From assembly GCA_037043015.1 (NCBI GenBank), contig CM073325.1, positions 12,317,001 through 12,381,000 of the forward strand: a stretch of DNA of 64,000 bases. The letters are read 5' to 3'. The notes under the pieces were generated by a model. It was not told the origin of the DNA and did not search any database. It saw only the letters and a list, made by a program, of their open reading frames with translations. Source of the stretch: Bryum argenteum (Eukaryota; Streptophyta; Bryopsida; Bryales; Bryaceae). The translations under genes and the position numbers were made by a program. Of the stretch, positions 1 to 64,000 are shown one piece after another (position 1 is the stretch's first letter; the number at the start of each line of letters is the position of its first letter).

Positions 1-1800
1 AGCTGCATATTATTTTGTGAGTATGGTTTTTTCATTACATTTAAGATTTTATGATTATGGGTATAACATTCATTCTAGTGCAAGGGAATTTGGTTTTTGT
101 GCTCTTTCTCTTTTGTAGATATAGGGCAATTTTCACCATTGCAAGGCTATAATTTTGAGCCAATATGATTTGTTTGGTACAAGAATTTTTTTGAGATGAA
201 GGTAAAAAAGTCTCTACTTAATTTATCTTATCACAGTACGTTTGTTGAAAACATTGTTTTCAACTGAAGTGAGATTTTGAAAGTTTTTTCAATACTACTA
301 CATTATGATCTCACAAGTGAAGTCTCATAACTCAAATTTTGATTCACAATAAGCCTACTACATGATTGCGAGATTGACATCCTATTGGCTAACTCTCATT
401 TACATCTACAACATTTCAAAAATTTAGGGGCTCGAACTTAAATTGTAAGAATCTAGCTATCATTTCTAGCAAGGTGCTCAGTAATGACTCAATTCTCGGC
501 ATGAAGAATCTACGGGGAAGTTACTAGTGCAAGTAATTTTTGTGCATGGAGAGAATCAATGAATAAGATAAAGCAAGTGGAATTTTTGGACTCTTCTGCA
601 GTGAGTCATAAAGTCTCAAAGTTGGATATATGCATGTTTCTAAATGTGCTATAAAGTGATACCCTATAATGTTTGCAGCGAGTACATGGTACACCTGTAT
701 GGGGAAGCTATCATGTACCTATGAAGGAAGATTATTATAACTCCATTGTAGAACCTGCTTCATTTTGTAGACCACTGGGAGCCCTCATTTGTGGAGCACA
801 TGCAAGGTGGTTTGAATGACACTCTGCCCCTGCAGGTACAGGTAAATATTTAAATCAGATTACAAGGCCGGTACTGTCAGCAAATTGAAATTACCCAACA
901 CAAATGGGTCCGCTCTGTCATTAATTAAATTTGATATTGCCCATTAAAGCACCCTAGTCAACTAATCAAAAATTGATTAGTTGGTAAACGTCAATCTCCG
1001 ACCCATGTGTACGATGTTTTAAGTTTTTCAAGGACAGTGTGATTTTGAGATGTTCAGAATGGGTACATTTGAAGGTGCTGCCTTGTGTTCTGTGGATCTC
1101 TTCAATGAATTACACAAGATTTTGTGTGATCATGAATAACCAAAGATTTTCTCTTGTCCTCCTCGAACTTATTCTATGGTTGAAGCACCTATTTTTGTGC
1201 ATTTGAGGGGTTCGTTATACTTGAAGTGAGGGGATCAGTGAATTAGTGTGTTTTTCCGGAGATTAGTAAACGGAAAAGACACAATTTTCTTATTTTTGTG
1301 ATATTTTTTAAACATTCACAAATTGAATTTTAATTTTTAGACGTGACTATTATAGGTATACCTAAAGTGGATCACCCTACTAGATGTACGAAGAACATGC
1401 AATTTCAAGAAAATTTTCATACTGATAAGACTGTAGACTACTCAAATACGGGAGCACTTAAGTTTAGGTTTTTTTACCATGATGATATATATAGTGCAGA
1501 TTGTGAATAGTATAGATGGGTATTGAACGTTCTGATATTATGTGTATTACATGCAATAAAAAATTATACTATATGATTATCCTCCTCTTGTCCCTTGAAC
1601 TCAAATATGCAAGTATAAGGCCTTATATCTTTGGTTTCTCAATTCCTAAGCCTCACATTGGCCCAATTCTTTTTCCCATTGGCTTCCCTTTAAGGTTGTT
1701 AATTAGAGTAGGTGAATTATTTGCTTGTCCATCGATAAATGCCCAAAGTTAAGGCTGCCGACCCTGCCTCGATTCTTTCCATGACCAGACGGTACGAGGA
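1..1800. other. Unassigned AT-rich intergenic DNA
   Basis: I recognise no gene, transposon end or RNA gene here. A small perfect hairpin with 11-bp arms (CAACTAATCAA / TTGATTAGTTG) lies at 959-983. The only open frame of note (1516-1752, 78 codons) has no recognisable similarity and is probably chance. The distal part may belong to the promoter of the acyl-CoA synthetase gene. Confidence 0.5.
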
Positions 1801-2068
1801 CACCCAGTACTATAATGAACAGCCTTGTCAACATTAATGGAGGACGAACACGTACCACAACACATCTACCAGTCTCAGATCTATGAATCCAACCGGTCAC
1901 ATCTACGTTTTAATGACCCATCCATTTGGCGGGGCTGGCTTCGTCTCTCGCACCCCGACACACTTTCGTGCTTTCGAGCACTTTCCTACCGATGCTCCAT
2001 TTTCCAAGCCCATCGTTGATCCTTTCTCAGCTCATGCTCTGAATCTCGCCACTTTTTCTTTTCCCATT

Positions 2069-2805
2069 GTAAGTTGACTGGTCCGATTTGGCATAGAGTC
2101 GAGGAAACGCGGGCTGAATTGGTCCAAACGATCGTTTCTATTGTTAGCTAACTGGATTTGCGATTTTTTCTTGGTACAGTAACGAATTGCTGGTGAGTAC
2201 GAAAACAAGATTGCTTCAGGTTTGATACGACGCTTGCCTTGCCTGGTCTAGATTCAGATAATTTTATTTTAGTCAAGAATAATGTGTTTTAATGGTTGGA
2301 AATGGAGCTTCTAGTGGACATTTGCTTGAAGAGCACGGAGGTGACTTTTAGTGATTAGTTTTGAAGCGAAGAGAGTGTAATATCAGGTTTGAATCGAGAA
2401 AAGCTGGTTACCAGGGATTTCTGTTTCTTGGAGCAACTATCTCAGATAGTTTCTTGCAGTTGAGTGTCTTTTTGCAGCTCATGGATGACGGCAGTGCTTG
2501 TCTGAAGATTGGCTGTATATGTGATCAGTCTATGGAGTAGATGATGTGAAGAGTTTATATTTAAATTTTAGGAGTGCACCACTGGTTTTCTTGAGAATTG
2601 TAGGAGTTTAGTGTATGAAAAGTGTCTGATTGTTGATTTATGGAGGGGTTGCAGTGAGCGTATAGTTTCTTGCAAGTATCTAACTGGAGTGACACCGTGA
2701 TTGTTTCTTTTAGACGAAAGTGGAAAAGCTAATTTGTTTTTTCCGTGCTACTATGCAACGCTTAATTTAACTACATCTGACAGTCGATGTCACTGCTTTT
2801 TGCAG
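2069..2805 (+). other. Probable 5'UTR intron of the LACS gene
   Basis: A strong donor (CCATT|GTAAGT) at 2069 and a pyrimidine-rich acceptor ending TTTTTGCAG at 2805 frame a 737-bp intron that ends 77 bp before the LACS start codon. A 5'UTR intron of this size is common in plant housekeeping genes. The transcription start is not visible, and the leader exon would lie somewhere within about 1800-2068. This is inferred from splice signals only. Confidence 0.5.
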
Positions 2806-2882
2806 CGAGTGTTACGAACGGAAGTAGAGAGGGTGGTGGCAATTTATCGAGCTGAGGAATAGAGTGAAAACATTAGTGCAGA

Positions 2883-5800
2883 ATGACGACGAGATACATC
2901 GTGCAGGTTGGGGACGGTGTGCCTGCCAACGGTGATGCTCCATCTAAAGGACCTGTTTACAGAAGCATATACGCGAAAGATGGATTTCCGCCTCTTCCTG
3001 ATGGACTTGAGACCTGTTGGGACCTATTCGCGTACTTCTCTACCCTTCTCGTCTTTCCCTCAGAACGCCATGCCCACCAGACTTTGTTCACCTCGAAAAA
3101 CCACGCCATTTCTCAGACTTGAGTTCTGCTTTTCAAGAACAATTATAACGTTTTCCTGCAATACTCACTCTGTTCTGGTTAAACTGTCCGGAACAAGTAC
3201 TCTCTTTAAGTGCCTGATTGAGGGAGTTGTGCAGTGGAGGCATTACTTTGCAACCTCCACCTATTTCTCCGTCTTACATTTTCTCAGAGTCAGCAGCTCT
3301 AATTCTCCCTCTTAACAAATGTTTATACAGCGAGCTCGTTCAACATAGAATGTCATTAACAATATTGCATGCTGTCATGCGGGATCTCGTGAAATTACGA
3401 GAACTGATGAACGACATAACACGTGATTATGCAGCCAATCCGTTAAACGTTCTCCGAACAACAATATGCTCGGAGTTCGCGAGATGAAGGATGGAAAAGT
3501 AAGTATCTAGTGGTACACGCTGAGAAATCTGAACATTCTTCATTTTCATTGTTGATCACCTATTTCGATTAACTTCTTCTGCGTAAGTGATTAATTGCTG
3601 GAAAATTTTCTAAAGTTAAGTAGATTGTTCTGCTGTTGGCGATGAATTTATATATGATGGGTCTTTAATATATTCAAAAATGAAAATATCTGATTGCAGG
3701 CAGGCAAATACGTGTGGCAAACCTATCAGCAAGTCTATGACAATGTTATCTGCATAGGTGCGGGAATGCGTTACTTGGGAGTGAATCCTGTGAGTTGAAC
3801 TGCTGCTCAATTTCCGTTAGTATTAGAGTGTTAAGTCAATGATTTGCTATTCAATGAAGTCCCGGATCTGTTCTCCACCCTGCAAAAATTCGATGTTTCG
3901 AAACCTTAGAAATACGTTTCTTCGTACGTTTCTGGATGGTTTTTTGTTTTGATCAACTTGCGTATGTGCAGGGGGGCCGTTGTGGAATATATGGCTCGAA
4001 CTCTCCAGAATGGTTCACTACTATGGAGGTACATTTGTTCCGACATCCTTTACATGCTGGTACTCCGAGTGGATGGGTTTAATTTGGAAACGAAGGCAGT
4101 ATCTCTACTATATTTTTCAAAAAGTATGCACTTTGTTTGACAGTGCCTGCTATAGGTTCTTGATTCGGATTCTTTTTTGCAATCTTGGAACTTATCAGGG
4201 TTCTTGAGATATTCTAACTAGTTGGTGTGGTTCTCGTTTGTTGCAGGCTTGCAATGCGCATAGTATAGTCTGTGTTCCTCTTTACGACACTCTTGGTATG
4301 CCTCTATCACGTTTTGACCCACCCATGTACACGTGCAGAGACAATTCCAGTGGCTATATGATTTACCGGTGGTAACTTTTGGAGGCATCAAATTGTGTTC
4401 TAAGAGCCTGGCTGTTGCAAGTCTGAAGTGTCTTAAGTTTCACCTCATATGAGCACATTGCCGCGTTGCTTACAAGGGTGCTTTTCGGTTACTACAGGAG
4501 TAACAGCAGTGGAGTACATCTTAAATCATGCTGAGATTTCAGTTGCCTTTGTGCAAGAGACTAAACTCCCATTGGTATGAACCTTCAGCCGTGGAATGTT
4601 TATTTTGTTAGTCCTTAGTGTAAGATGCCATACAACAGGCTTCAGACTTACATTAATGAACAGCTAACGATCTCATCTTGACTGCGCAGATGATCAAGTC
4701 GCTCCCCAAGTGCACGGAATTCCTGAAAAGTAAATTTGCGCCTTTCCTTCTTAGAATTTGATACAATGCAATATCCTTGTCCTTTTAGAAGCTGTTACAG
4801 CCATTCGTAAAAGCTTTGGTCCTCTCTAATGTTGCGGTCTCTTGGTTATGATCTGTGATGCTTTATCTATAATCGTGACATCTGCACTCACGTGCACTCA
4901 AATATTAAAGATCACCGGAAAATTAGAGGTTTCTGAATTAGAAATAATAAGTGTTTCGTATGTCTGAATGATGCAGCCGTGGTTAGTTTTGGGAACATCT
5001 CCGATGATCTAAAATCTCAAGCGCAGGATGTGGGAGCCAAGGTCTACTCATGGGAGGAATTCTTGAAGCTAGTGAGCTATCTCTCATTCTGCACCACTGT
5101 ATACGATGCAGTTTTCTCTTATGAATATGCTGAAACTCTCCAGTAAATTTATGCCTCTGCAAAACAGCCAAGTTGCTGTCGATCTGCATAGAATCTGTTA
5201 TGGCTGTCAGGATGTTTGTATCATGTAGTGACCTTTCTTGAAGCTCAATACAGAATGTGAAGACAAGCAAAGAAACTAATGTGCTGGTTCAGTCCGCTCC
5301 TACTGTAGTAATAAATATCAAATTAATGAATAATGAATATTTTCCTCTTATGATCTTTCTCGCCCAGCATGGGAGCACACTTGCTTTCATAATTTCAACG
5401 TCAAGTCTGGGTTGGAACCGATCACTTTTAGAGTTTCCAGGGAATTACCAGGAATTGTTATTCAGTAGGTCAGAAGGAGCTGATCAAGAAACTTCTGAAG
5501 GCCTTGATTCTGATAATATTTTGTTGATTTCGTAGGGACGCAGTAATCCTGTTGATTTGGCACCACCAAAGAAAGAGGACCTTTCAACGATCATGTACAC
5601 TAGTGGCACCACTGGAGAGCCAAAAGGCGTGATTTTGACTCATGAAAATGTTCTGGTCACTATTGCTGGTCTTAATCATTATCTGAAATCTCTCAACGAA
5701 GTGGTGAGCGTCTGGTTTTCGACTATTCTCTGTTACGGATTTGTTTTGTAGATTTAGAAAATACTTAGTTGTTGTTTTCATATGTTCAGGATACTTGCTT

Positions 5801-8800
5801 TCTATTCTCCTTTTCAGCCTGAGTATATCAAACACTAAAAAACGCTTGCATTATCGACAAGGGAGAGTTTTGACAATGGTTTCATACATGCAGATGGATC
5901 ACAACGATGTTTACTTCTCATTCCTGCCTTTAGCTCACATCTTTGACAGAGTAGCTGAAGAAGTGTTCGTTTTTGTTGGTGGTTCGATCGGATTCTGGCA
6001 AGGGGTATGTGAACCAAGTATTGAGAATCTTGAATTTGATTATGTTCAGGTTCTTCAAGAGATGTTTCATCCCGCAAGAGTAGCTCTAATTCAATTAACA
6101 GACTTTACTTACTTGGGCAATTTGTTTCCCTAATGTAGGATATCAAGAAGGTGCCTGAAGACATTGCAGAATTGAAACCAACATTGTTTGTTGGTGTTCC
6201 TCGTGTCTTTGATAGACTCACTGCTGGTCTGCTCAAACTTTTAAATACAATTTTTACTTTCATGCTCGTTGACATGAAAGTCGAGTGCAATTTGGACATG
6301 CTTTTATGTTTCAGCTTGAAATCTCTTCGAATCCAGTGAATAGTATGTTTAAAAAATGAGGAGAAATAGCAATCGACGTTTTCGAATCATTGATTGCAAG
6401 ACTTTTGATTATTTTAGAAGATGATACTCCGGCCTGGAAACCAGTTGACATGAATGAAGTTCCTTCAATTTGTGTTCAATTTGGACATGAAGTGATTTTA
6501 GGAGTCTTTCATTGTCCTTCAGCTACAATATATACCAGTTTTGTTGGGATGTGGAAAGACTGGAAACAACTCCTGACATGGATATGTTAATTGTGGTAAT
6601 TTTTCAGGTATCCAAGCCAAAATTGCTGCCGCAGGCGGAGTAAAGAGTACGCTCTTCAGTTTGGGTTCCTTCTGGTGAGTACGTTGGTTCTGTTTTGTAG
6701 CACGGAAATGAGCTGGTTCTTGGAATCGGCTGTTCCGGTTACAGTACTGTAACCGGGCACTTAATGCTTCGGTGTTCACTTCTGCAATTTAGAGTAGCTG
6801 TTAGATCGTTCTTAACGCTTGATCTTGAAAAACAGGAAACTGATGTGGATAAAGATGGGCTTCAAACAAGACGTGGCATCGAAATTATTTGATAGAATTC
6901 TATTTAATAAGGTTCGATCGGTACATCTCTGGTGCAGTTTCTTGTGATGTGTTCTCCTGCTATTGTTGGTTTTCGGGAGATAACTATGGATGGTTTCGGT
7001 TGTCGTTTTATTAAGCAGCGGATTCTGAATCTTGTAGGTGAGAATGGGCCTCGGTGGACGTGTGAGGCTTGTCATATCTGGAGCTGCCCCGCTGTCCGGG
7101 CATGTAGAGGAGTTTTTACGGGTGATTATGTGTGCCCCTGTTTTGCAAGGTTATGGTAAGCACACATGACTACATGCCACTTTTTTATTCACATCTTTAG
7201 ACGGCCTGCCTGCACTGATTTTTTTGTCATCTCTGTGTTGTCTTAGGTTTGACGGAGACATGTGCTGCCAGTTTCATCCAAGTTCCGGACGTTTTCTCCA
7301 TGAATGGAACTGTGGGTCCTCCCCTATGCAATATTGATGCGAGGCTAGAATCTGTTCCGGAATTGGGTTATGAGGCCTACGAGGAGAACAATGCTAAACC
7401 ACGAGGAGAAATATGCATTCGTGGAGCTACAGTATTTTCTGGTTATTACAAACGCCCTGAACTCACCGAGGAGGTTCTGCAGGATGGCTGGTTCCATACT
7501 GGTACGTTTTCTTCATCTTCGAACCAGTAAAAGCTTTTTACCGCTACATAGTGTGCTAGTCACCTATCCCGTAGCTTTCTCCAAGAGTTTGGTCTTAAAC
7601 CATCACAATCATTCTGCTGTTCTTTCTCGGGTAGTGAGTTGTTACTGGATTTCGGATTTCCGTTGCTGAGATTTGTCCCGGCATTGTGTTAACACATTAA
7701 ATTCAGTTGATTATGTCATTCTTGCCAAGATAACAGCGTTCTGAGTGGCAGATACATTTTGCAACTCAGCCGGATAGTGCTGAAAGAGACTGCTAATACA
7801 AACATGTAATGTGTGTTGTATGTTTCAGGTGACATTGGGGAGTGGCAACCAGATGGTGCAATGAAGATTATCGATCGCAAGAAGAACATATTTAAGCTCT
7901 CTCAGGGAGAATATATTGCAGTTGAAAACCTTGAAAATGTATACAATGAGTCTCCTTCTGTTGATGGGGTACGTGCACCACCCATTGTGCTCTAATTTAC
8001 AGCTCTCAACCTAAAGTGTTTCTCCGTTACCATCGATTACCTTGGAACCAAGTTTGACCTGCACTGTAGTTTTAAAATGCATAATTACACCACTCTATGG
8101 CTATTCTACATGGTTCTTGTCTAGTCTTGTTTTTCAGCGATGTTGTGGTTATGCTTCCATGCAGTACTGTTCTCTGTATAGATTCTAATGGTCTCTTGCC
8201 TCGACTACGCAGATATGGGTCTACGGGAATAGTTTCGAATCGTCCGTGGTGGCTGTAGTAGTTCCCAATCAGCAAGCACTTGAGGATTGGGCCAACGCCA
8301 ACGGAGAGAAGGGAGACTTTGCCTCCTTATGCAAGAGCTCTAAAGCAGAGGAGTTCATTCTGTCAGAGCTGAATGCCATGGGCAAGAAGAAAGGGGTAAG
8401 GATCTTGCTATAACTTGGTCTTAAGATGTTCATTTGTTCTTGAGGCAGTACGGGGTCAAAGATCTGCCGAATCACTTTTCTAACCTGCATATAGCATGAA
8501 TTGAACCTTGAAAGATAAGAGTGCTTTCACGCGGATGGTTTTGGCGTACGTTTTCTGAAGCTTTAAGTGAGGTTATTCACAGCAGTGGCCACTCCTCACT
8601 TTAACCACTCTAGTTTATCTGTTTTAAATGGAATCCTTAGTCATGCACCAGTAGGATATTATCGGCAACTTTGTCGTCTATGTTGCGTGAGTAAGTTTAT
8701 GAAGTACACTGCTGAGCTCTTCTATGCATTGATGACAGATGAAAGGATTTGAGTTCATTAGAGGAGTGCACTTGGATCCTCAACCATTTGATGTAGAACG

Positions 8801-9159
8801 TGATTTGGCCACGCCGACCTACAAGCTAAAACGACCGCAGCTTCTAAAATTCTACCAGGTATCTGACCTGGACTCAATACTTGCGCAATAACATACCTAT
8901 GGAGCACAGGTGTCCGATTTTTTTTAATATTCTCTTGCATGAACACACCATTATTCAGTGCGATACTGTAAAACTCGATTAGCTCCAGGCTTGGTTCATA
9001 AACTGTCTTAAGTACTAATTCATGTAGTTGCGCTCTCGATATTTTACAATTTGACAATGGAAGTAGCTTCCGGCACGACTCTCTAACAGAACTTTGTAAC
9101 TTTGATATTGCAGAAGGAGATTGATGCTTTATATGTAAAGATAAAGTCAAAGCAATGAA
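2883..9159 (+). CDS. LACS: Long-chain acyl-CoA synthetase (LACS4-type), 19 coding exons, 663 aa
   Basis: Activates long-chain fatty acids with ATP and CoA for lipid, cutin or wax synthesis, presumably on the ER. Coding exons: 2883-3031, 3435-3498, 3700-3789, 3972-4028, 4247-4295, 4498-4574, 4690-4729, 4977-5071, 5536-5703, 5894-6004, 6139-6226, 6608-6674, 6836-6911, 7038-7155, 7247-7501, 7829-7968, 8213-8395, 8739-8858, 9115-9159. The phases chain without a break to 663 aa, the usual length of plant LACS1-5/LACS4-like enzymes. Visible motifs are the P-loop [10 protein letters not shown] (about 229-238), QGYGLTE (414-420) and the fatty-acyl-CoA signature running from DGWFHTG (from 496) through IDRKKN and GEYIA. 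The C-terminus SKQ is not a clear peroxisomal signal, which argues against the LACS6/7 class. Exon 11 uses an unusual GTCTGC donor, supported by phase. The gene is tail to tail with POR. Family call near certain; isoform uncertain. Confidence 0.95.
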
Positions 9160-11384
9160 GGATTTGAGATGAATCATCGGAGGTTGCTATACTTGAATAT
9201 TCCCAGTTCTCCAACCCTTTTCCACGTACAGGTTCTCTCATGCGAATATCAATAACTTGGTCGAAGTGTGTAGACATAAATAGTGGCGATACCGCATTAT
9301 GTTGCCATGGGTACAAACTTTAAGCCGTTAGATTGCAAGGCAGTTCTGTTCTTTTGCCTTTCGACACACAATCCTTGAATGCACTTGCTGCAGCTTAACT
9401 GTAGCATTACATTCACTGCCCGTCCTTTTTCATTCGCAATCTGGTTAGCGGTTTCCTGAGTTTTTCTTGAATAGTTGTACCTGAGGTGTTTGCATCTTGT
9501 CAGGGGTACCGTTAAGGATGACGATTACATGTACTATATTAGAATCTGCATGTAAACCTTGTATGTAGATGAGATTTCTTGCTAAGAGGGAATTAGTTTG
9601 GTTTCTGAAGATTTTTCTTGTACAAATCGTAATATTAAGTACAACGATCATTCTGGACTTGTGTTAGGAATCTTCCACATGATTAGAGCATCCCTTAGTT
9701 AAATATATAATATATTTCAATATTTGGGATAGGGGTTTGTCTTTTAGTGAAACAACCTTTCGGGCCTTTGCAAGGTGTTTCTTGAACTATTATGTCACAA
9801 TAAAATATCGGATTTATTGCCTCAAACCTAGATTTGAAAATTGTTGTTTTGGAAGAGAGAGAAATTGAGCTCAAACAAATATTTCAACTATACGGTTGAA
9901 CAGCCTATTCCTGAGCGCCTTCCTAAAACTGAACTCTATAGGCCCATATTAAACCGAGCAACCTACCACCCAAAGTGGAGCTCATTAATAACTTGCCTCT
10001 TACACAAATGCCAGGTGCTTTCCTCTCACAAGGTGGTTCTTGTCCACATGTGGGTTGGTGTGTGATGGACATTAAGGAATAAAACCCACAGTTTAATGCC
10101 CCACCTATGCCCCATTATAGGGGTCTACTTGTCTCCCACTTTGGAGATTTATAATAAATGGAGAATTATTAAGAAAATTATGATGGAACTTGGACTAATT
10201 TAATACTGTACTTGCTAATTTGAGGGAAAAAGTTCATGCTCTAATTTTATGAAGAACTACAAGAACCCCTTAAATACTCGGGAATAGGCAGGTTGACCTT
10301 AGAGGGACTATGACTTTTCCTCAATTGAGAAATTCAAGGATACAATTCTCAATGAAAATAATAAATGTGTAAAAATATACTTGACTCATTTAATGCCTCA
10401 CTTTATACAATCACATTCTTTCAATTGTCACCAAACCCTGGGGAAGGAATGTGCACCTCAAAAATCACACATCATTGTCATTATCACCTTTGTCATTAGA
10501 TCATGCAACACTTAGTGTAGATTGTGACGTGGGAATAGAAAAAGGTGAAAGAAAATCTTTTGAGTGTGAAGAGCAATATAGAGATCATGAAAGATGAGAA
10601 CGTATTCCACCATTGATATCATTGATAATCCAAATTAGGTCATTGTGTCAATACCATACCTCACCTTTGTTATTGAAACAATTTGTTACATTGCTACGCT
10701 TAATCATAATTGGCTCCACTTCTGATTCAGCCAACATGCCGATTTTGAAACATTGACCAGTCATTCCAAATGATGCTCCAATACAAATATGAGGTTCGCA
10801 ATCGTGATATTCCATTGTGTGAGGACACATGATATCATTTTAAAAGTGTGTGACAACTATATGTTTTTATATTATAAAAAGGTTCAAAGTGTAGTTGGTT
10901 ATCTCAAACGCAAGAATTTATAGTATTTACAATTCCAAAAATGCACTCAACACTGATGAAGGTTATTGGAGTAGTGTTAAATAAGGTACAAACAAGTATA
11001 CCAGAACCCAATGGATAGTCACGAAAGAGCCCAAAATGACCAGTTTTAACTGATATTCATGTGCACACTATGTAACCATAGCCACAAGATCTTTTACACT
11101 ATCCTAAGCCGTCACAGAAAATTTGAACACCTCTTGCCGTATCCTAATCCTAGTTAGAGAGGCGGTCACGGCAGTGTCCGCTCCTTCCCATGTATATTCT
11201 CCACCAGAACAGGTCTTCACATTTGCCCTTCCTTCGGATCATGCATCACAAGCCTACCCATACTGTACTGTAATCCCCATTCGGTTCTCCGTGGGTGTAA
11301 ACCGGTTGCATAGATTCTCAAGTCCTGTTCCTACAGTTATAACCCCAGCTCGTATGATAAATATAATGTTCAAAAGTTAGGAAT
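9160..11384. other. Spacer between the 3' ends of LACS and POR
   Basis: AT-rich DNA between two convergent genes. It must hold both 3'UTRs. A possible AATAAA signal on the plus strand lies near 9797, rather far from the LACS stop. I recognise no transposon ends or protein similarity; open frames here are 60-75 codons and carry no motif. Confidence 0.5.
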
Positions 11385-13912
11385 CTAAGCTAAGCCAATC
11401 AGCTTTTCACTGACATCCCACAATTTCTTCGCCTTCTCGGCATCGCTGGCCTCCTGAGAGAGCTCGTTCTCGAACGAGTTTGAGTTGCTGTTCCAACTCC
11501 AGTAGACACCCGACTTGTTCATGTTGGGATCGCTCACGACCTGAGAGAGTATTGAGTCAATACAAAAGTAATGGATTTTCAAGGAAACAAAGTATGATAA
11601 ACAGATTCCAGTGCTCCAGGGCACTTGACTATCAGCGATGATGACAAGCAAAATCGGCTGGAGAATTACCTGGGCCAATCTCTTGCCAGCGTCTTCCTCT
11701 GAGACGTAACCTTTCGTAATGTACTTCTGGAAGGGTGGGAACAGAGTTCGGAAGAGTTGGTAGTGCTCGCGGAAGAGTCCTGTGGTTGCAATGCACCCAG
11801 GATACAATGACGAGAAGACCACACCTGTCTTCTCGTGGAACCGGCGGTGCATCTCCTGCATGGTCAGCATGTTGCAGACCTTGCTGTCTTTGTAGGCCTT
11901 CGCACCATCGAATTCACCTCCATCAATCATCACAGAGGCTCGGACTCCATCCAGGCCGCCTGCAAGCCCTCGTAAGTCACCCAGGTTGGCCTTGGGTGGG
12001 ACATTTCCAGCTACCGTGTTCGTGTTTCCTGCAATGATTCAATAAAGTCCTCAGCCTCCAGCACATTGCACTGTCCGGGCCATAACATCAGCATCGAGCG
12101 TTTGAAAGAGCACAAATGATTGGAAGCGTACCTGTGATTGAACCCACGATGATCACCCGCCTCTCGGTATCGTTCTCCTTGTGCTGGATATCCTCCATCA
12201 GCAGATTCGCCAACAGGAAGTGGCCGAGGTGGTTGGTGCCCACACTCAACTCAAATCCATCAGCAGTGTACCTGGGCTCCTTCGCGGTGGGCAGATAGAC
12301 AGCAGCATTGCATACTAGGACGTCCAGAGGACGACCTGAACGCCGAAAATTCTCCACGAATTGCTTGACGCTGTTCAAAGAAGACAGGTCACAGTGCATC
12401 ACAGTGTAGCTGTCCTTGGGCATGCCAACCGACTTGGCGGCTCGCTCAGCCTTGAGGAAGTCTCGGCATGCCATCACCACGTGCCATTGACCGGACTCGG
12501 CGAGCACCTTCGCGGTAGCAAGACCGAGACCCGAAGAAGCACCGGTGATAATAACAGTCGACTTGGTGTCTGTCTTCTTCGATGCCGTGGAGTTCTTCGT
12601 CTCAGCTGGCGCTGCGACGCTCTGAGCCCGCACGGGGGCAACCAGTGGCTGTCTTGGTGTAGCCTGTTATTAAAATCTCGTAAGTAAAACACCGATATTC
12701 ATTCACTCCTCTTTCGGCATGAATCACAAAGCCGATAGCCATTAACTACTAATCATTCATAGTGGATCTTCGAGAATCGAACTTTTTTTGACTGCCAATT
12801 GAACACTGCGATGTACAAGGCAATCAAATTGGAATGGGCTGGCGTGCCAAGAGAATTCTGGCACAAGTTAAATGAGCTGGAGACACAAGCTGATTAATAT
12901 AAAAAACAGATATTGTAAGATAGCAGATTCCCTCTCTAATGACTGTATTTGTGAAATACTGAAGACAGAGATTGCAACAAAGAAAGCATTTCATACCGAG
13001 TTCACGGCCCTGAGGACTGCAGACAAATCCTTGCACGTGGACAGCTTAGTTCCAACGAAGGCTGATGCCGGCACATTGGCGACACCCCCGGAGGCAGACC
13101 TCTGCACAGAACACAAGATCACACAACAATCAGTATTTAGATCTCTTTCGCAAATCCCTGCTCTACCGACACGAACTCAAAACTCAAGAAAACAACAGGA
13201 GGCAGCATTTCAAATGTAAATAGCAGTAGTTCATCAAAGAGGGGCGTTCACACAGAAAAATCCTCCGTGCGACAAAGATAAAACCCGTCCCCCCAAAGGC
13301 TATGCTCAATTACTACATCGAACATCCTCTTTCTATCCCCGGGAATGACAACGACTAAAGTAGACGTCGCAATCTTCAAGAACTTGCGAACGAAGATAGA
13401 ATTGGAAACTACTCAAACTAACTAACTCAAAAAAACCCATGCAAGATTTCAAATTCCACTCCTAAACCCTACAGCCATTCAAAGCCTGAACAACACGGAC
13501 GCAAACGCTGAGCTTCTCTCAAGCTCAATTTCCTTGTAACGACAAACAAATGAACAGAGTAGAAAAAAAATCTCCACAGAATAGGATTCAAAACACGTAA
13601 AGCAAGTTAGCATCAAGAATTTCTTTCATCAAGTAATGGCGCAAGAGGCTACATTGCCAAAAACTCATCGAAATGCATCTCCGCCAAACACAAGCTCAAA
13701 AGCCTTTCATCAGGTAAGTTACAGAGCGTCAGAACAGAAGCTTCCAGCTCTAATACAAAGAACGTGATGGGCAGCTCTTTCAACCCGGCATACAAACTGA
13801 AAGAGAAAATGCAATTCTACATCAAATGAAGAGGCGATTGTTTCATTACCTGGACGGCGATGGAGCTGAACGAGGAGGAGACAGCGACAGCGGCAGCAAC
13901 GCGGGCAGCCAT
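11385..13912 (-). CDS. POR: NADPH-protochlorophyllide oxidoreductase (light-dependent POR), 5 exons, 404 aa
   Basis: Reduces protochlorophyllide to chlorophyllide in the plastid using NADPH and light. Exons in coding order: 13912-13850, 13101-12997, 12663-12132, 12028-11670, 11540-11385; phases join perfectly to 404 aa, the family's normal length. The start ATG at 13912 opens an Ala/Ser/Val-rich chloroplast transit peptide encoded by exons 1, 2 and the start of 3. The short-chain dehydrogenase core follows: nucleotide-binding TGASSGLG at 96-103, [21 protein letters not shown], and the catalytic YKDSK with Tyr279 and Lys283. The POR-specific segment ([13 protein letters not shown]) and the C-terminal VYWSWN region are present, separating it from other short-chain dehydrogenases. 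No damage is seen, so it looks functional. The convergent neighbour is LACS. Confidence 0.97.
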
Positions 13913-55390: not shown

Positions 55391-55582
55391 TCATGATACA
55401 AGCTCATGGCTCCGCCAATTCATGTACCAGCGGCGGCCTCCAGTCTGCAACCAACTTCCCCACGATTCTCCTGCAGATAGATAGATAAAAACTCCGGTCC
55501 TATTTACAGGGCCGGCGTGAATAAAGTGTCTGTTCGTCATGCCAATGAACCGGTGCCCATCGGACAGGGGCCATTGATGCAC
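55391..55582 (-). repeat. Dispersed repeat with conserved peptide, copy 2
   Basis: Partner of 37669-37917, same orientation and shared minus-strand peptide HFIHAGP-x2-RTGV-x-IYLS. It lies about 400 bp beyond the coding end of the minus-strand LINE, so it may belong to that LINE's 3' tail. Confidence 0.55.
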
Positions 55583-55984
55583 AACTACTCACCCCTTTCG
55601 GGAATAGACACTATAGTAACCAGAAAAAATAAAATGATAAAAATAAAATAGAAAAGGAGGGGAACTCCGGTAAGGGTTATATGGGGGTATATTAGGTGGT
55701 TTGGGTGTGTTTATGGACGCCAAGCCATAATTCCAGATTGATTGGGAAGGAAGATTACATTGTTACTAAACGGTCCGGGTTCGATTCTCGATGGATCCGT
55801 TTGAGCGTTTATTGTGAACAACATGGTTTGGTGCTGCTGGTGAATTATTCATAGGCAGGAGAGTTGTGCCAATCAATCGGCCCCGTCCCAACTACCTGAG
55901 ACAAGTGTGACTTTACTGTGGGAAGTAGTTTGCGCCATTACCCCAACTCCTCTCCTTTTGTTGGGTTAGGTTATTGTTGGGATT
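55583..55984. other. Sequence between the LINE coding end and the dispersed repeat
   Basis: Probably 3' untranslated sequence of the LINE. A GGTTCGATTC motif (55778-55787) resembles a pol III B box, but no matching A box or tRNA fold is seen. No clear poly(A) tail marks the LINE end, although an A/T-rich run lies at 55330-55355. Confidence 0.35.
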
Positions 55985-56253
55985 GTTTGGTTGTTTTCTA
56001 TCTTTCTTTTGTGTAGGATAATTGACCCGGCGTGTTGGATGGCTATGGTATTTATCTCTTGGAATGTTCGTTTTATGCAAGTTTTCGGTATTTCGAATTT
56101 ATCTTCGAGTATTTTCATTGATGGCTTGTGTGTAGTGCCTCTGGCACCTGCTGTGATGACGATCAGTGGGTCAACTTTCCATCCTAGGTTGCGGATATTG
56201 TCAATGAGTGGTTGGTATTTGTCTATTTTGTTACTAATTGTTTCTTGTGGGAA

Positions 56254-57430
56254 TCATCGTTGTTGATATGTGAATTCAATGAATTGAATTGTGAGGTTGT
56301 CTGATGGTTGTGATGGAGGGTCGTTTTTGTGTGGGAGTCCTTTTACGCATAGGATGTCTGGTCTAAGTCTGGCGTTGCAGTGACATCTTTGTTCTGTGCA
56401 ATTGCATTGTAATAGCCATGTGGGAACTGTGTTTTCTTGAGGGTTATTATTAAATGTGCATGCGTTCATGAGAATGTAGCATCTGGATTTCTGTGATGAT
56501 AGTATTAGTTTTCTTAATTCCCATACGGCTTTGTTATGACGTTTGCATCTGATGGCGTGTATGTGGTGGTGTCCGCATTTGAGCAATGCATGTAGCCATG
56601 TATCGACATCTGAGGAGTTGCATGTAGAACATGTGATTAAGGGGAATCTTTCTCTGCCAAAAAATAGTTGTTTCCTTGCGTTTCCCATGTATTGGCCTGT
56701 ACGGAGTTTTAAAATAGTTGTTTTTTGGGAGTCTGAAGTCATAGGATTCGACCAGTATGTGTTAGATAATTCATTATCAATGTCCGGGTTTGTGGTCCAT
56801 TTGTTAGTGTTAGGGAATCGGGAAGCAAGTATTTCAAGGTTGTTGTCGTAGTCGTATTTGTGTAGGTATGTTTGGAGACATCGAACTGGGCCTTTGTCCG
56901 GGCGAGTTAGGGGTCTAGGCCATGCATATTTTTGGTAGTAGAATGGTGTTGTGTGTGCGAATTCGTGGGGTTGTGTGGCTATTGAGTATTTTTTCGTGGC
57001 GCCTGCTTTTGCAAGTTTATCTGCCTGTTCATTGCCAGTGATGTTGATATGTGCTTTGACTTTGTGAAATATAGTTGGTTGTGTGCGGTTTTTGAGTAAT
57101 TCAACCATTTCTGCCATGATACTTTTGTCGGCATGGTTGTGGTGTGCGAAGGGTTGTTGAATATGAGTATTCAAATTGTATAGACAGTTGATGCAATCTG
57201 TAAAAATGTATGCTGGTTCGTTGGGATATTTGTTGTTTATTAAATGGAGTGTTGTGTATATAGCCATTAATTCTGCGCAAAATCAGGTTTGAAGGCCAGG
57301 GAGTCTTACACATAGTTGCATGTCCGGTTTCGTGGAGTTGTAAATACCGTATCCGGCTTTTTCTTTTTTCCAGTGGCCATCTGGGGCTTCTTTTGGCGGA
57401 ATGAAGGAGCCGTCCGTATAATAACTAAAT
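56254..57430 (-). pseudogene. LINE RNase H and C-terminal CCHC/RPD region
   Basis: RNase H block with three acidic positions (YYTDGS, IFTDC, QADKLAK) and its His (VKAHINITGN), interrupted by a frame change near 57280. Downstream come C-S-T-C...H...C and RHN, then RPD. Similar sequence runs on beyond the stop at 56254 to about 56000 (KYQPLIDNIRNLGWKV), so the protein originally ended there. Confidence 0.75.
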
Positions 57431-58769
57431 TGTGGTTGGAATTTTAATATCGGGTTAATTACGAATGATGGCATGGAAGGGACGTGTGTGGTTGAGGGGT
57501 TAGTTGTCGTTAATGAGGGATATAGTTTTTTATTCCATTGTTTGTTTTTGTTGACAGTGGTGTTGAGTGGAGTTGGTGGAGCCTGTTGTATGTAGTATTG
57601 TGGTATTTGCATGGACATTATGGCATTTTTTATGTTATTTATTTGCTCGGGTGTACCAATATGGTTATTTTGATGGTGTATGCACATGATGGAAATTGCA
57701 AGCGGCTCCGTAGTTGGTTTGTATTTTTGTGGAGGTGCTGGTATGTCGTATGTAATGGTATCGGCTGTGAACTGTGTGAAGTAGGTTATCACGTGTGTAT
57801 CAGGAAAGGGACCATCGTATGGGGTTGAGTTTTGGTACCAATTTGTATCTGGGATTACTAGAATGGTAATTGCATTTGGATCATGTTTGGCTGCCAGTCT
57901 TGCCCAGTGGATAGCTTGTTGGGTTGCTTCGGTATTGTGTGGGTGTGCGTAGTGATGAGATATTGTCCGTTGTTGTCATATAGGTGGGCTGATTCTTTGT
58001 TTATTTGTATGGTGGGTTTGTTAGAGATAATGTCTTTTTCTGGGTTACTTTCTTCAAAGTGTATTTGTGTAAGTGGGGTAATTGATGGTGGTGGTATGAA
58101 TCTAGTGTCTTTGTGTTGTGCTTGCGTGAAGTGGGTGCTGATCAGGTTGGTGTAGTGAGCATGTTGTAATTTGGTGTAGTAATCTTTAAGAAGTTGGAGA
58201 TTATGTTCGATAACTATTGGGTGATTGAAGGAGAATAGGTCTTTTTGTTGGAGTCTTTTATGATATGTGGTGCTGTTGTGATGCCATTCGCAGAGGTATG
58301 TGTTGTAGGTTTTTGGTACTTTGTATTTATTTTTTGTGGTAACATTTTTATGGTTTATTATTTTGATTATGGGAAAGTTGATTGGGTTGTTTTTTATTTT
58401 TGGTGGGCATATTAGGTGATTTGTTTGTTGATCGTTAGGATGGGTTGGGTTGGGGTGATATCTTGGAAGTAGTTCTGAGTTGTCTGAGATATATAATGGT
58501 TTAAGTGTACGAGGCGGTGGGTGATGGGTGCATGTATTTGGACAGTTTAGGGAGCATTTGGGTTGGCAAAATAATTTTTCAGCTATCTCTAGCGCACTTT
58601 TCACAAGTCTTGATGGAGTTTTATGGTAGATTGCGAAGTCGGTTGGTAACATGAGAGTTGTACCATTTGGGAGGGAAATGTGTTTTATTTCGTGGATATT
58701 GTGTATTAAGAGTTTGTGTATTAATTTGATTGATAGTACAGGGTTGAGATGTGGGAGTTCTATTGTGGC

Positions 58770-60257
58770 TTATTCTAACCATTCACGTTCAAGTTTGGTT
58801 TTGTGTGATTGAAAGTTTTCGTTAGTGCATTTGAGGTGTATACCCCCTTCTTGTTTCAAAAGGAATAGTATTCTTGTGATGGGAGAGCTTATACAATCGG
58901 AGGATTTTATTCTAGGGATGTTTTCTGCGCCACCGTGTTTGGATAGTATGTGTTGGATGAGACCTCTGTATATGATGCCTAATCTGCCCTGATAATTAAG
59001 AGCATTTCTGAGTTGTTCTCCTATGCAGCGTAAGTATGCATTTTTTAGTGAGAATGCTTCTAGCCCAAATAGTTTGTGAGGGAGTTGGGTTATCACGTTT
59101 GCTGTACATTTAGGCAGGCCACATATTGTTTTTTGGATTCCAATAATTTTTTTGTCGAGTTTGTTGATGGTTGGAAGTAAGAATGGCACTGCATAAAAAC
59201 TGTAGGCGATGCCAGCTCGTATAACAGTGTCGACCATATTGATTTTTTGTTTAATAGTTGCAGGGCATTTCGTTAATTGTTTACATTGGTCAATTAGTTT
59301 ATTTGTAGCGATGTGTGTTTGGATCTTCCATTTTAATGAGGGTACCATATGTATACCAAGGTAGACGTATGGTTCATTTTGGTGAAGGATGGGGATTGGC
59401 TGGTTTCTGTAGGTGATGTTGTGTTGTTGTAATAATTCTTTAAATTTATCTGGTTTTATTTTTGATTTGTTGGGGCAGCCTGTAATGGCACATTTTTGCG
59501 CACTGAGGTCCATGCCTGCCCATTCGCAGAATTTATCTATTTTGTATATTTGGGTTGTAATGGATTGGAGGGTGTTGGCAAGTCCTGCTAAGTCATCAGC
59601 GTAAGCAGCAGCAGTAATATTTAATTTCGACGTACCAAATGCGTAGCCGTTGTTTCCTCTTTGTAGCCATCTAAGTAGTGGTTCTAGAAATATAAGAAAT
59701 AAGTAGGGACTTAATGTATCACCTTGAATGGTACCTCTTTGTATTGGGATTGGTTTAGTTTTGCCAAAATGTTCACCTGTGAATATTGTGGAAGAGTTTG
59801 AGTAGATATTTCCGACCAGTACTACTGCGTCTATAGGGTATCCCAGATCTTTCATTATTGCGAGGAGTCGGGCGTGGTCTAAAGAGCCAAATGCATTTTT
59901 AAAGTCTATATATAATATGTAGATGTCTTGGTTTGTGATTCTTGCGTCCTCTAAGGTCATAGGTAATAAGTTGTATTTGTCTGTTTGTGCTTCTTTACTC
60001 TTTCGAAAGCCTTCTTGGCTATCATGCAGTATTTGGTGTCTTTCGCCATATGTTGAGAGTATAAGTGTGAGAGTACTGGTGAATAGTTTGTAGATTGTAT
60101 TGGCTAACGCTATGGGTCTGTAGTTTGGTAGTACTGAGGGATCGCCTTTTTTGTATAATAAGATGGTGAGGCTAAGTTTCCAGGATTCTGGTATTTGGCA
60201 TTGTTTGTAGCAGTGATGAAAAAACATGGATAATAGCTTATGGAAGTTATCAGGCAT
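58770..60257 (-). pseudogene. LINE reverse transcriptase segment, 495 codons open
   Basis: The best-preserved part of the LINE. All RT blocks are readable: KKGDPSVLPNYRPIAL (block 1/2), GFRKSKEAQTDKYNL, the catalytic YIDFKNAFGSLDH (Asp), QGDTLSPYLFLIFLEPLL, YADD with the paired aspartates, and the thumb region FCEWAGMDLSAQKCAI. No stop interrupts these blocks, so the element may have died rather recently or the segment escaped damage by chance. Confidence 0.85.
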
Positions 60258-61540
60258 ATTTTTTAGAATGGAGTTTGAAATTCTGTCGGGACCTGGTGCT
60301 TTGTTGTTAGATAGTTGTTTTAAACATAACCCATATATTTCTTCGTTGAAGTATTCATGTAGAGGGGTTTGTGGATTGCCCCTTTTGTCTATTACGAATC
60401 CATCTAAATCGTGCCATGGGTATTGTCTAACGCTACATGTGCATAATGTTGGGTGTTGGGGTTGATGGTAGCACGTTGGGACTGTGGGTCTGTTGCTTTG
60501 TGATTGTTGTGTATGTATTTCAAGTGCGATGTCGTCTGGGTTAGTTAAAAGATTGTTATGTCTGTCTTTGATACAGTCAAGTGGTGGGGTGTCTTGGTGT
60601 TTGAAGACTTTTTTGTTTATTTTTTTGGACTTTTGTCATATAGTTGTCTGTATTTTGTGATAGCTTTTTTAATGCATGTTTGGGTGTATTTTGTAGTATT
60701 TTTTCGTGCTTGTTTGTTTGATGTCTTTGCTATTTCGGCTAGGGTTTTAATCCATTCTTGTATATTGGAGGATTGTGGGGGGGGTGGTGGTATATTTGCG
60801 TGGGTATGATTGTTTAGTTCTTCTAATATGGGGTGGTTCTGCCAGTTGGGGTTGTTGTTTGTGATGTATATAGCTTTGCGTATTAAATGGTAGGTAGCTA
60901 GGCATTTTTTCCATTGTTTTTGGTTTTTTCTTGGTAAAATTCCCCCCTGATCTGTTGTGCGAGGAGTTAAAGAAGGCAGGGGTGGTGCGCTACAAGTGTC
61001 TTCGATGATCTTGGATATATGTTTAATTAGGTGGTCTAGTTTTTCACATGTTGTTTGCCATTGTGTATCTGTTAAGTGGGTATTTGAGAGAAGAGAAGTA
61101 ATGTCGTTGATTTCTTTTGAGTTTTCTTCGTAAAATATAGTCTTGAATTTATCTAGGTTTTCTTGTGGTATGGGATTCAGAATCCTTATTGGTTTATTTG
61201 TAGGTTTTTGTGGGGGCCTTGCAAGCAGCGTGTTTGGGGGTATTTGGAGAGTAACTGGAGAGTGGTCTGAATTAAGGTTATGTTCCGTAATAGTTGATGA
61301 TATGTATAGACTATTGTGGGGGGTTTTTATATAAAAGCCGTCAATTAGGCTCGTTTCGTTGTAATTTTGGCCTCCTTGTCTGGTATATGTAGTGTTTGTT
61401 GGTACGTACGTTAGTTGTAGGGTATTTATGAATGTTCGCCAGTCTATATCCTCGATTTGTGGTGGGGATGTGTTTGAGTCGTGTTGGCGACCTATAAGAG
61501 CTATGTCTCTATTGAAGTCTCCGCAAAGTATTTGGGTGTG

Positions 61541-61553
61541 GTTAGGGTTTAGG
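61541..61553 (+). repeat. Two telomere-type TTTAGGG units at the LINE 5' junction
   Basis: TTAGGGTTTAGGG lies exactly where LINE coding similarity stops and the GC-rich foldback begins. TTTAGGG is the usual plant telomere repeat. Two units can be chance, or microhomology used at the truncation junction. Confidence 0.4.
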
Positions 61554-61907
61554 GTTGTCAAATCGGTCGACATTCGGGGTAAACCTAGTCCGCGGACGTA
61601 GTCCGGACCATGTCGACCGGGACCATAGTCCGAACCATGGTCCGGGGTAAATGGGAGTTACCCGGTCCCTGGTAACTTCTGGGGCCGTTGGATCATCCAC
61701 CTGGCTACATCTCAGCCGTTAAAATTTGATCCCGGTCGGCCGACCGACCTCCGGCCGCTCCGTCGATCGCGCGCGGCGGCCGACCGTAGTAGATCATGGC
61801 CGTCGGATCAATTCCCAGCGCTTGCGGGCGTTGGATCGGGCCGCCGTCCGCATGCCCGACGGCCGCCGGATCGGCGCGCGCCGGCGGATCGGGGTCGGGG
61901 TGGTCGC

Positions 61908-62090
61908 CCGTCGCCATGGCGGTCGGGTCGGGCCGGCCGCCGCCGCGGCGGGGTCGGTCGTGGCCGCCGCCGTGGCGGTCGGGGTCGGGCCGGCCGTCGC
62001 CATGGCGGTCCGGGAGTCGGGCTGGCCGTCGCCGTGGCGGTCGGGGGTCGGGCTAGCCGTCGCCGTGGCGGTCCGGGGGTCGGACCGGCG
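61908..62090. repeat. GC-rich minisatellite, ~36-bp units
   Basis: About five copies of a unit like GGCCGTCGCCATGGCGGTC followed by a (C)GGG(A/G)GTCGGGC spacer, forming the inner half of the foldback's left wing. Confidence 0.8.
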
Positions 62091-62126
62091 GTCGGCAAGG
62101 CCGTCGGATTGGTCGGTGGTCGATCT

Positions 62127-62461
62127 GACTGCCTGCAGTGGCTCTTTAAACTTCAAATGCCCATAACTTCGTCAAAAATTATCCAAATCGCTTATTTAAG
62201 ATGTTTTTTGACATCTGAAAAACATGTAGATGCCAAAAAACATCTTAAATGCACAATTTGGATTAGTTTTGACAAAGTTATAGGCCTTCAAAGGCCGTCA
62301 AACCTTCAAAGGTTTACAACTTCGTCAAAACGTATCCAAATTGGATGTTTAAGATGTTTTTTGGCATGTACATGTTCTGTAGATGTCAAAAAACATCTTA
62401 AATGTTCGATTCGGATAAGTTTTGACTAAGTTAGGGGCATTTCAAGTTTCTGCAGGCAGTC
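62127..62461. repeat. Double palindrome core of the foldback
   Basis: Outer arms GACTGCCTGCAG / CTGCAGGCAGTC are perfect. Each inner unit pairs (AC)TTCGTCAAAA with TTTTGAC(A/T)AAGTT and TTAAGATGTTTTTTG with CAAAAAACATCTTAA. A transcript could fold as one long hairpin or as two ~120-nt hairpins, a possible source of small RNAs. Confidence 0.85.
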
Positions 62462-62545
62462 ACATCGGCCGCCGACCGATTTGCCGACCGATCCAACGAC
62501 CGCCGACCGATCCTACGGCCCACACCCGGTCGGCCTCTAGCACTC

Positions 62546-64000
62546 CCCTCTCTCCCTCTCCCCTCTCTCACTCACAAGCCCTTCCTCTCCTCTTCTTCCT
62601 CTCCTTCAACGCATTTATGAACTTTCTATTTTGGGGATCAGACATTAAATTCTTTGCCTAATTCAAGGCATGGACCCACGTGCCATATTCTTTGGGGAAT
62701 GTTAAGAAGATTTCATTGTAATCTATGAGAATGTTTTATTTGAATAATCATATGGCCTTGGAGATATATGAAAGGTTGAAATTTGACATGTGACCTTAAG
62801 ATCCTACGGTTGAGTCTTTTATATAATGCTTGAATTGAGGCTTTTTTGGGCCTCAAGTAGAAGAATATTATTGTGGAGAATATAGGCAATTTTGCATCAA
62901 GGATCTTTAGGAATTAAAGTCTCTCTATTTGAACTAAGACATAAACTAGACTCAAGCCACTTTTGCTAATTTCTCAATAATTCACATACTCTAATAACCC
63001 CTAAAGATCCAAGAAAGCCGAAATGGCTTTTTGGGATTTCCGCAGGGAAAAAATTCAGCCAACTTTGACCATTATAATCTCAAAATTGGAGAAATATCAA
63101 TGGTTCAAATTCGACATTCAAGTAAAGGGTCAAGTTAACTTCAAGATCCTACGGTTGGATCTTCTTATTAATCCTTAGATTGAGTTTCTTTGGGCCTGAA
63201 CTAGAAGAAGGTTCTTCTTGATAATTTAGACAATTTTGTATCAAGGATCTTTAGGGGATAATGAAGATCAATAAGATGTTACTTACTATTTAACGCATAT
63301 TATAGTTTTACAACTGTAAAAAGAAAATATAAAGATCTTTACATTTTGTGTATTTAAAATTACCTTTTCTTTCTTTTTGTCCAAAGAAGGAATTTTAGGA
63401 ACATGCCTCATATTCAAATTCAACCCAGGGGGCATTTAGTATTTGAGTGTAAGTTTTTAAAGTCCTTTGACAAAAATGCTTAATATTATAGGGGTCGAAC
63501 AAGATGAATAGAAAGTATCTAATTGAGGCTAAGAAGAGGCTTCTACAAAGAATATTCTTATTCAATACAAATTTGATCGCCATATCAATCAATTGAAGTT
63601 AATATTATCCAATTGCGTATTAAAATAACATATGAGTCTACAACTATAGGAACAAGTATACTAATATTACAATGCTATATATTATAAAACTAGTAGTTTT
63701 TTGAAATTTTATTTGGCTTCGGTTAAAATTATCATTATTTATTATCATGGAATAATAGACAATAGAAACAAATTCTTATTTGCTTTGTATAAGTCATTTA
63801 AAAAGTATTCTAATTATAATGTGAAGAGAAATCATACTAGAGAAGATAAAAAATTATTATGTACGCAATATAAATAGAAAACCTTACACTTAGATAAAAC
63901 TCAAGTTTAATCATAATCCAAGAATGCTAACAAAAATATATTATAAAAAAATTATAGGGTACATGATGTCTGTTAATAAAGTAATGTAGGATTAGAATTT
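62546..64000. other. AT-rich DNA without recognisable genes
   Basis: Apart from the repeat pair listed separately I see nothing. 62540-62610 is a C/T-rich stretch of CTCTCC and TCTTCC type. No coding frame longer than 80 codons has recognisable features. Confidence 0.45.
62763..63256. repeat. Diverged direct repeat pair, units ~153 and ~167 bp
   Basis: Units at 62763-62915 and 63090-63256 share, in order, AAGATCCTACGGTTG, TTGGGCCT, AGAAGAA, CAATTTTG and ATCAAGGATCTTTAGG. Overall identity is about 70% by eye. Confidence 0.75.

Follow-up and report, generated by a model that had tools for sequence, protein, structure and literature searches.

The stretch of Bryum argenteum DNA analysed here (the window; 64,000 nucleotides of contig CM073325.1, positions 12,317,001 to 12,381,000) carries on its minus strand a broken copy of a long interspersed nuclear element (LINE) at 55475-61548. 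The copy holds half of an apurinic-type endonuclease (APE), a reverse transcriptase (RT), an RNase H and a C-terminal CCHC-RHN-RPD-E-KxxKY module that resembles a restriction-like endonuclease (RLE). This report deals with the element and with the family it belongs to in the host genome. An earlier note, made from the letters of the window alone, had named CGDFNRD, SDHSPV, the RT, the RNase H and the C-terminal module as parts of one LINE, and Pfam matches and sequence order confirmed that all of them are real and lie on one strand. The same note had placed the element at 55985-61560; an element was indeed found there, but its bounds had to be moved to about 55475-61548, now including a 3' untranslated region (UTR) and a short TATC tail. 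The features are as follows (PMC numbers cite excerpts of the papers throughout).

55475-61548, minus strand: 3' portion of a dual-endonuclease LINE copy, its 5' side apparently interrupted by a later insertion (blastn against the natural copy C10:7747873-7759399; upstream pieces at C5:12385770-12386919)
61253-61548, minus strand: APE endonuclease, C-terminal half, CGDFNRD ... SDHSPV (Pfam Exo_endo_phos_2, 1.2e-5)
59349-60143, minus strand: RT core (RVT_1, Pfam 4e-27; best solved relative by family profile an R2 protein, 4.7e-39)
57941-57952, minus strand: site where about 356 nt are missing, so that most of the PCIF1-like domain is gone from the window copy (alignment break at natural-copy positions 8004/8361)
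56998-57423, minus strand: RNase H domain, split by TGA 57283-57285, its start read at YYTDGSF (second part Pfam RNase_H 4e-8; whole domain 1.7e-12 in another copy)
56575-56631, minus strand: CCHC zinc knuckle CX2CX9HX4C directly before the predicted RLE (from the sequence; four ligands invariant in 13 aligned rows)
55969-56364, minus strand: predicted RLE core RPD ... E ... KX2KY ... GWKV with one TGA at 56254-56256 (from sequence and alignment; signature in PMC5678591 and PMC10499050)
55475-55965, minus strand: 3' UTR ending in GGACCGGAGTTTTTATCTATCTATCT, with a short TATC repeat in place of poly(A) (14 of the 29 loci searched, among them the window, share this end string; flanks differ)
61549-64000, no strand assigned: probable beginning of the later insertion into the LINE copy, about 7.2 kb long and extending past the window (from the coordinates of the copy's pieces)

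Damage to the window copy

The match of the half APE to Exo_endo_phos_2 scored 25.6 bits, slightly below the Pfam cut-off of 27.4. In-frame stops interrupt the copy at 58770 (TAA), 57283 (TGA) and 56254 (TGA), the last one sitting between the E and the K of the predicted RLE, and the reading frame is broken near 60620-60635.

The earlier note had regarded the APE as a remnant. Numbered on the natural copy C10:7747873-7759399, the window copy begins at residue 185 of the second open reading frame (ORF2). A genome search with residues 1-184 matched APE residues 83-184 at C5:12385770-12386075 on the same strand, and the region upstream of this piece was matched at C5:12386278-12386919, again on the same strand. 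Window base 61548 corresponds to C5:12378548, which leaves a gap of about 7.2 kb between the pieces of the copy. Because the missing part of the APE lies that far along the same strand, the simplest reading is that the domain was split by a later insertion, mostly beyond the window, rather than decayed. The true 5' end of the copy lies outside the window. At the junction, from window position 61549 onward, the sequence bears AACCCTAAACCCTAAC, i.e. telomere-like units.

The family in the host genome

The host genome (258.8 Mb in 25 contigs) was searched with parts of the element. The RNase H-RLE end gave at least 118 matches (118 of 643 candidates scored) and the RT at least 73 matches in at least 71 places (71 of 626 candidates scored), the window included in both cases, and these places are spread over contigs C1-C11. 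We therefore rejected contamination as the source of the family. The N-terminal region of ORF2 and the N-terminal half of the APE gave at least 150 matches each; all scored ones matched, some of them being pieces of one copy. Grouped by identity to the window, the copies form subfamily W, which is 96-98% identical in the RLE end, subfamilies A and A2, at about 80-87%, and subfamily B, whose RLE end is 60-64% and whose RT is 69-73% identical. Fuller copies, for which the earlier note had suggested looking, were found: at six RT places the surrounding open frame is 2,227-2,941 codons long. Two copies have their N-terminal, APE, RT and RLE matches in a single open frame, of 2,613 codons in one case and of 2,941 in the other. 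As a side observation, a listing of RVT_1 matches at E 1.5e-36 has 14 of its 31 entries on C1, a 44-Mb contig that makes up about one sixth of the genome, possibly owing to a burst of one element there.

The natural copy C10:7747873-7759399 showed the order ORF1, a 2A-like CGDVETNPGP, APE, RT, PCIF1-like domain, RNase H, zinc knuckle and RLE. Its ORF1 has 601 codons. The first part of ORF2 has 480 codons, contains CGDVETNPGP and is strongly basic in its first 260 residues (27% K+R, 0.8% D+E); ORF2 then continues in another frame with 2,157 codons holding the APE, RT, PCIF1-like domain, RNase H and RLE. This frame break probably is damage of that copy itself, because the two copies mentioned above have their N-terminal, APE, RT and RLE regions in the same open frame. 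In a subfamily A copy Exo_endo_phos (9.3e-8), RVT_1 (1.3e-28), RNase_H (1.7e-12) and PCIF1_WW (PF12237, 2e-11) were all above the Pfam cut-off. In a subfamily B copy this held for RVT_1 (3.7e-27) and PCIF1_WW (4.5e-13), with two APE models slightly below it (6.3e-5 and 2.7e-5). ORF1 compared with PDB gave a single match at chance level (E 0.73).

The C-terminal module of the window copy reads CSTCNSSDVDTWLHALLKC-RHN-RPD-E-KIDKY in that order, and about 200 residues lie beyond the knuckle in the family. The RLEs of LINEs are described as following a knuckle CX2-3CX7-8HX4C and as a variant of the PD-(D/E)XK fold in which the lysine has moved into a helix, where it is the first K of KX2KY (PMC5678591). 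In the family the E stands 27 residues after PD and the K, within KX2KY, 16 residues after the E. The corresponding residues of R2Bm are D996, D1009 and K1026 (PMC10499050), giving spacings of 13 and 17; thus the diagnostic lysine agrees, whereas the loop between PD and E is longer in the family. In an alignment of 13 rows (the window, i.e. L009, 10 of the 30 RLE-end loci and two further loci) PD, E, both lysines and the tyrosine were invariant, and the full pattern was present in 12 rows, the exception being L036 with RHT instead of RHN. Left out of this alignment were loci with stops or truncation and some open ones; L015, which did not show the QYMG marker, was dropped from it and from the set of 3' ends. 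The full ordered pattern, which was drawn up once the sequence was known and allows loose spacings, was absent from 200,000 shuffled versions of the C-terminal protein of the window; its CCHC part alone occurred in 697 of them and its PD-E-KxxKY part alone in 42. By its residue pattern the module is probably a restriction-like endonuclease, with the KX2KY signature of the LINE type.

Ratios of nonsynonymous to synonymous substitution (dN/dS) were calculated according to Nei and Gojobori with eight copies of subfamily A, three of A2 and one of W; saturated dS values, among them all those of A-B and A2-B, were not used. Between A, A2 and W dN/dS was 0.07-0.11 for the APE, 0.05-0.06 for the RT, 0.11-0.16 for the PCIF1-like part, 0.08-0.12 for the knuckle and RLE and 0.12-0.21 for the linkers. 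RNase H yielded 0.07-0.13 between subfamilies, with the A-W value saturated. Within subfamily A the ratios ranged from 0.10 to 0.28. The low values between subfamilies indicate constraint in the source lineages on the two nucleases as well as on the PCIF1-like part, and the nucleases look as if they had been kept in working order.

The 3' UTR ended in GGACCGGAGTTTTTATC at 14 of 29 loci, the window included, and the other 15 were without that exact string. A TATC repeat was present at 13 of the 14 ends; L038 had a variant. All 14 readable 3' flanks differed from each other, which led us to reject site-specific insertion. For comparison, PMC3747384 gives tandem ends other than A for each of the 8 RandI families of green algae, and poly(A) for 224 out of the 233 L1 families of flowering plants.

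The two open frames overlap by 19 nt on the minus strand of L069 (G000:C10:7755400-7759399), the one copy read for the junction. There the ORF2 frame has no ATG before CGDVETNPGP and its first methionine directly behind. The sequence CGDVETNPGP, in an open frame of this one natural copy, fits the StopGo/2A motif (D/G/C/N)(V/I)ExNPGP; none of 200,000 shuffles contained the motif. Since the frame lacks an ATG upstream of NPGP and has one right after it, ORF2 might be produced by a frame shift from ORF1 over the 19-nt overlap and be released at the 2A-like site. Alternatively, translation of ORF2 could be initiated at the ATG right after NPGP. For plant viruses PMC12846837, which gives the StopGo/2A motif, reports no natural case. 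A general search on 2A met no 2A-like site in a plant LINE among the open-access papers listed.

The PCIF1-like domain (PF12237) was detected between RT and RNase H in two natural copies above the cut-off (4.5e-13 in B, 2e-11 in A), and PCIF1 structures in PDB were matched weakly (E 0.022). About where NPPF, which we take to be the catalytic motif of PCIF1, would be expected, HTHNPE or HPHTEE is present in the family; the alignment to the PCIF1 structures stops short of that spot. As the motif thus seems altered, catalysis by the domain appears doubtful. A search of open-access literature for a PCIF1 domain in a LINE brought up no such report, judging by the titles and opening abstract lines of the papers listed.

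Relationships of the family

The RT profile of the family (the window and 10 of the 30 RT loci, free of stops) found three R2 sequences as its best matches in PDB, with E values of 4.7e-39 to 7.2e-36. These were followed by 8c8j, which we take to be human L1, with 8.2e-20 and then by 8gh6, presumably R2Bm, with 5.4e-18. In an unrooted tree of 12 sequences the family RT was placed outside the three R2s (98.6/98) and outside L1Hs plus L073 (94.9/94), and it grouped weakly (61/67) with L072, to which it is 25-26% identical. The APE LINEs in this tree are human L1 and one rumen LINE, and Dualen, plant L1, RTE and I are not represented in it; the R2, R2Bm and L1 rows are the stretches aligned in the PDB search, R2Bm with only 302 residues. 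In a tree without a Dualen sequence the family RT would thus take a position between R2 and L1Hs plus L073, as is stated for the RT of Dualen, which is placed as an intermediate (PMC4640811). Used as a query in the host genome, the L072 RT had family places as its ten best matches. Among the eight best matches of the L073 RT, four were at places outside the family listings, presumably ordinary LINEs.

L072 came from the scan of one genome-contig collection, which yielded two relatives among 42 candidate stretches; scans of viral contigs with RT, RLE and L072 yielded none. It contains a frame of 4,174 codons (1-12525) with MYND fingers, an APE-like match of 0.0046 (below threshold), RT, RNase H and an RLE-like end. 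Although binned in a marine Verrucomicrobia metagenome-assembled genome, it is probably a eukaryotic contamination and likely a second dual-endonuclease element. Like the family it has the order APE-RT-RNase H-RLE in one frame, and the RLE ends align collinearly with z scores of 3.2-5.9 (2 to 20 of 2,000 shuffles as good, five rows). It differs in having EFK in the RLE instead of the EFT plus KX2KY of the family, in its MYND fingers, in lacking a PCIF1 match in Pfam and in the APE being below the cut-off.

Overall, we read the window as holding one broken copy of a LINE family that resides in a land plant and whose ORF2 combines APE, RT, PCIF1-like domain, RNase H and knuckle with RLE, and we assign this reading a probability of roughly 0.8. 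The earlier note's proposal that a single land-plant LINE carries the two types of endonuclease gained support from the many copies, from the purifying selection on both nucleases and from the RT lying outside L1Hs plus L073. The note had also named what would speak against its proposal, i.e. an RT grouping firmly with plant L1 or I clades together with a C-terminal module lacking any RLE profile match. Of this only a part came true: with the RLE profile no R2 was found in PDB, but the RT stood apart from the APE LINEs compared, which were human L1 and one rumen LINE.

Several results weigh against a dual-endonuclease family. The APE had no match among the solved structures of PDB at E 0.01, and the RLE profile of the family did not retrieve R2 there up to E 10. 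With the RT profile R2Bm ranked below an L1 chain. The family knuckle CX2CX9HX4C is one residue longer than the form described in PMC5678591. Similarity to the RLE of L072 was weak (hhalign E 0.026 at a probability of 1.9; BLAST E 0.23 and 0.086), and the alignment of the two spans only the part from the E onward. No direct repeat that could be a target-site duplication was present at the one 5' side read. Finally, the 2A motif is known from one copy alone.

Membership in the Dualen/RandI clade by inheritance from green algal ancestors has about even odds. The features expected of this clade are present, namely APE, C-terminal RLE, RNase H (PF00075, 1.7e-12), which is listed for Dualen/RandI in PMC4640811, and a short tandem 3' repeat like that of the green-algal RandI families; the RT position between R2 and L1Hs plus L073 points the same way. 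On the other hand, the comparison was made without any Dualen sequence, and the RT shares merely 25-26% identity and a weak grouping with L072. Dualen/RandI is known from Chlamydomonas, to which the earlier note had referred, and from its relatives, and LINE/Dualen has already been reported in cryptophytes as well (PMC12747079). The family differs in its land-plant host and may also differ in having an ORF1, in the 2A-like site and in the PCIF1-like domain. The excerpts of PMC4640811, PMC8226300, PMC3636483, PMC12747079 and PMC3747384 do not place Dualen/RandI in a land plant, and no report of a dual-endonuclease LINE in a land plant was met among the open-access papers listed, most subscription journals and Repbase being outside that search.

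Somewhat less probable is a separate dual-endonuclease lineage, or one gained horizontally from another eukaryote. The deep divergence from L072 and the additional 2A-like and PCIF1-like modules would fit this possibility. No donor appeared in three scans of viral contigs and one scan of genome contigs, which weighs little because these collections hold few eukaryotes. In a tentative version of the same idea, land plants would possess a deep lineage of their own among LINEs with two endonucleases, separate from the RandI elements of algae, with an ORF1-ORF2 fusion split by 2A and a captured PCIF1-type methyltransferase domain. Both nucleases and a module derived from RNA methylation would then act in one retrotransposition machine.

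It is improbable that we are dealing with an ordinary APE LINE, e.g. a plant L1 with RNase H, whose C-terminal knuckle region merely resembles an RLE. In APE LINEs, too, a CCHC knuckle closes the linker (PMC5678591), and the failure of the RLE profile to find R2 in PDB as well as the rank of R2Bm below L1 would agree with such an element. Yet about 200 residues behind the knuckle evolve at dN/dS of 0.08-0.12 with invariant PD, E, K and KY, the pattern is absent from all 200,000 shuffles, two other R2 chains are the best PDB matches of the RT, the RT is excluded from L1Hs plus L073 at 94.9/94, and the tail is TATC with no poly(A). Plain plant L1 was rejected for the presence of the RLE and the same RT placement, in a tree without plant L1. 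An insertion does split the window copy, but an artefact in which an APE LINE and an RLE LINE are nested in each other can practically be dismissed, as two copies carry N-terminal, APE, RT and RLE regions in one open frame (2,613 and 2,941 codons) and the order recurs in other copies.

The family combines traits of several known systems. With Dualen/RandI it shares APE plus RLE, RNase H and a tandem 3' repeat other than A. With R2/NeSL LINEs it shares the C-terminal zinc knuckle and RLE with KX2KY, and two R2 chains are its best solved RT relatives; unlike these elements, which have the RLE only, a single ORF and mostly site-specific insertion, it has an APE, an RNase H, a second ORF and 14 differing flanks. 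Plant L1 shares two ORFs, APE, RT and RNase H with the family (the RNase H also in PMC4640811), whereas the family has an RLE, an RT outside L1Hs plus L073 and TATC instead of poly(A). The APE-type LINEs with 2A share the 2A-like motif, the family having in addition an RLE and a plant host. Such 2A sequences reportedly occur in APE-type LINEs from animals as well as from other multicellular organisms (Odon et al. 2013).

The family may move by target-primed reverse transcription. Because the insertion flanks share no sequence, the APE most likely would make the first nick, and the RLE, held by the RT via the zinc knuckle as in R2, could open the target or cut the second strand. Dual-endonuclease LINEs have been read as a link between RLE and APE retrotransposons (PMC4640811). 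A family that is present in many copies in a land plant and has selection acting on each of its two nucleases would be a tractable system for the role of two nucleases in one element. It also carries two features not expected in a plant LINE, the 2A-like site and the PCIF1-like domain.

Host and neighbourhood

Besides the LINE copy the window holds exons of protochlorophyllide reductase (TIGR01289, 1.5e-88 and 2.9e-76, each exon alone being under the whole-protein cut-off), AMP-binding exons and a Copia element. The window gave no matches when scanned with Rfam and for tRNAs. In the host genome SAM_LFY was matched five times, zf-FLZ four times and DHC_N2, representing dynein heavy-chain exons, 33 times. 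Together, protochlorophyllide reductase, SAM_LFY, zf-FLZ and dynein heavy chain presumably indicate a land plant with flagellated sperm. The region around the LINE copy (window 56001-62000) has an extreme strand asymmetry with a GC skew of +0.30 to +0.39 and an AT skew of about -0.3 on the plus strand, the coding strand being rich in A and C.

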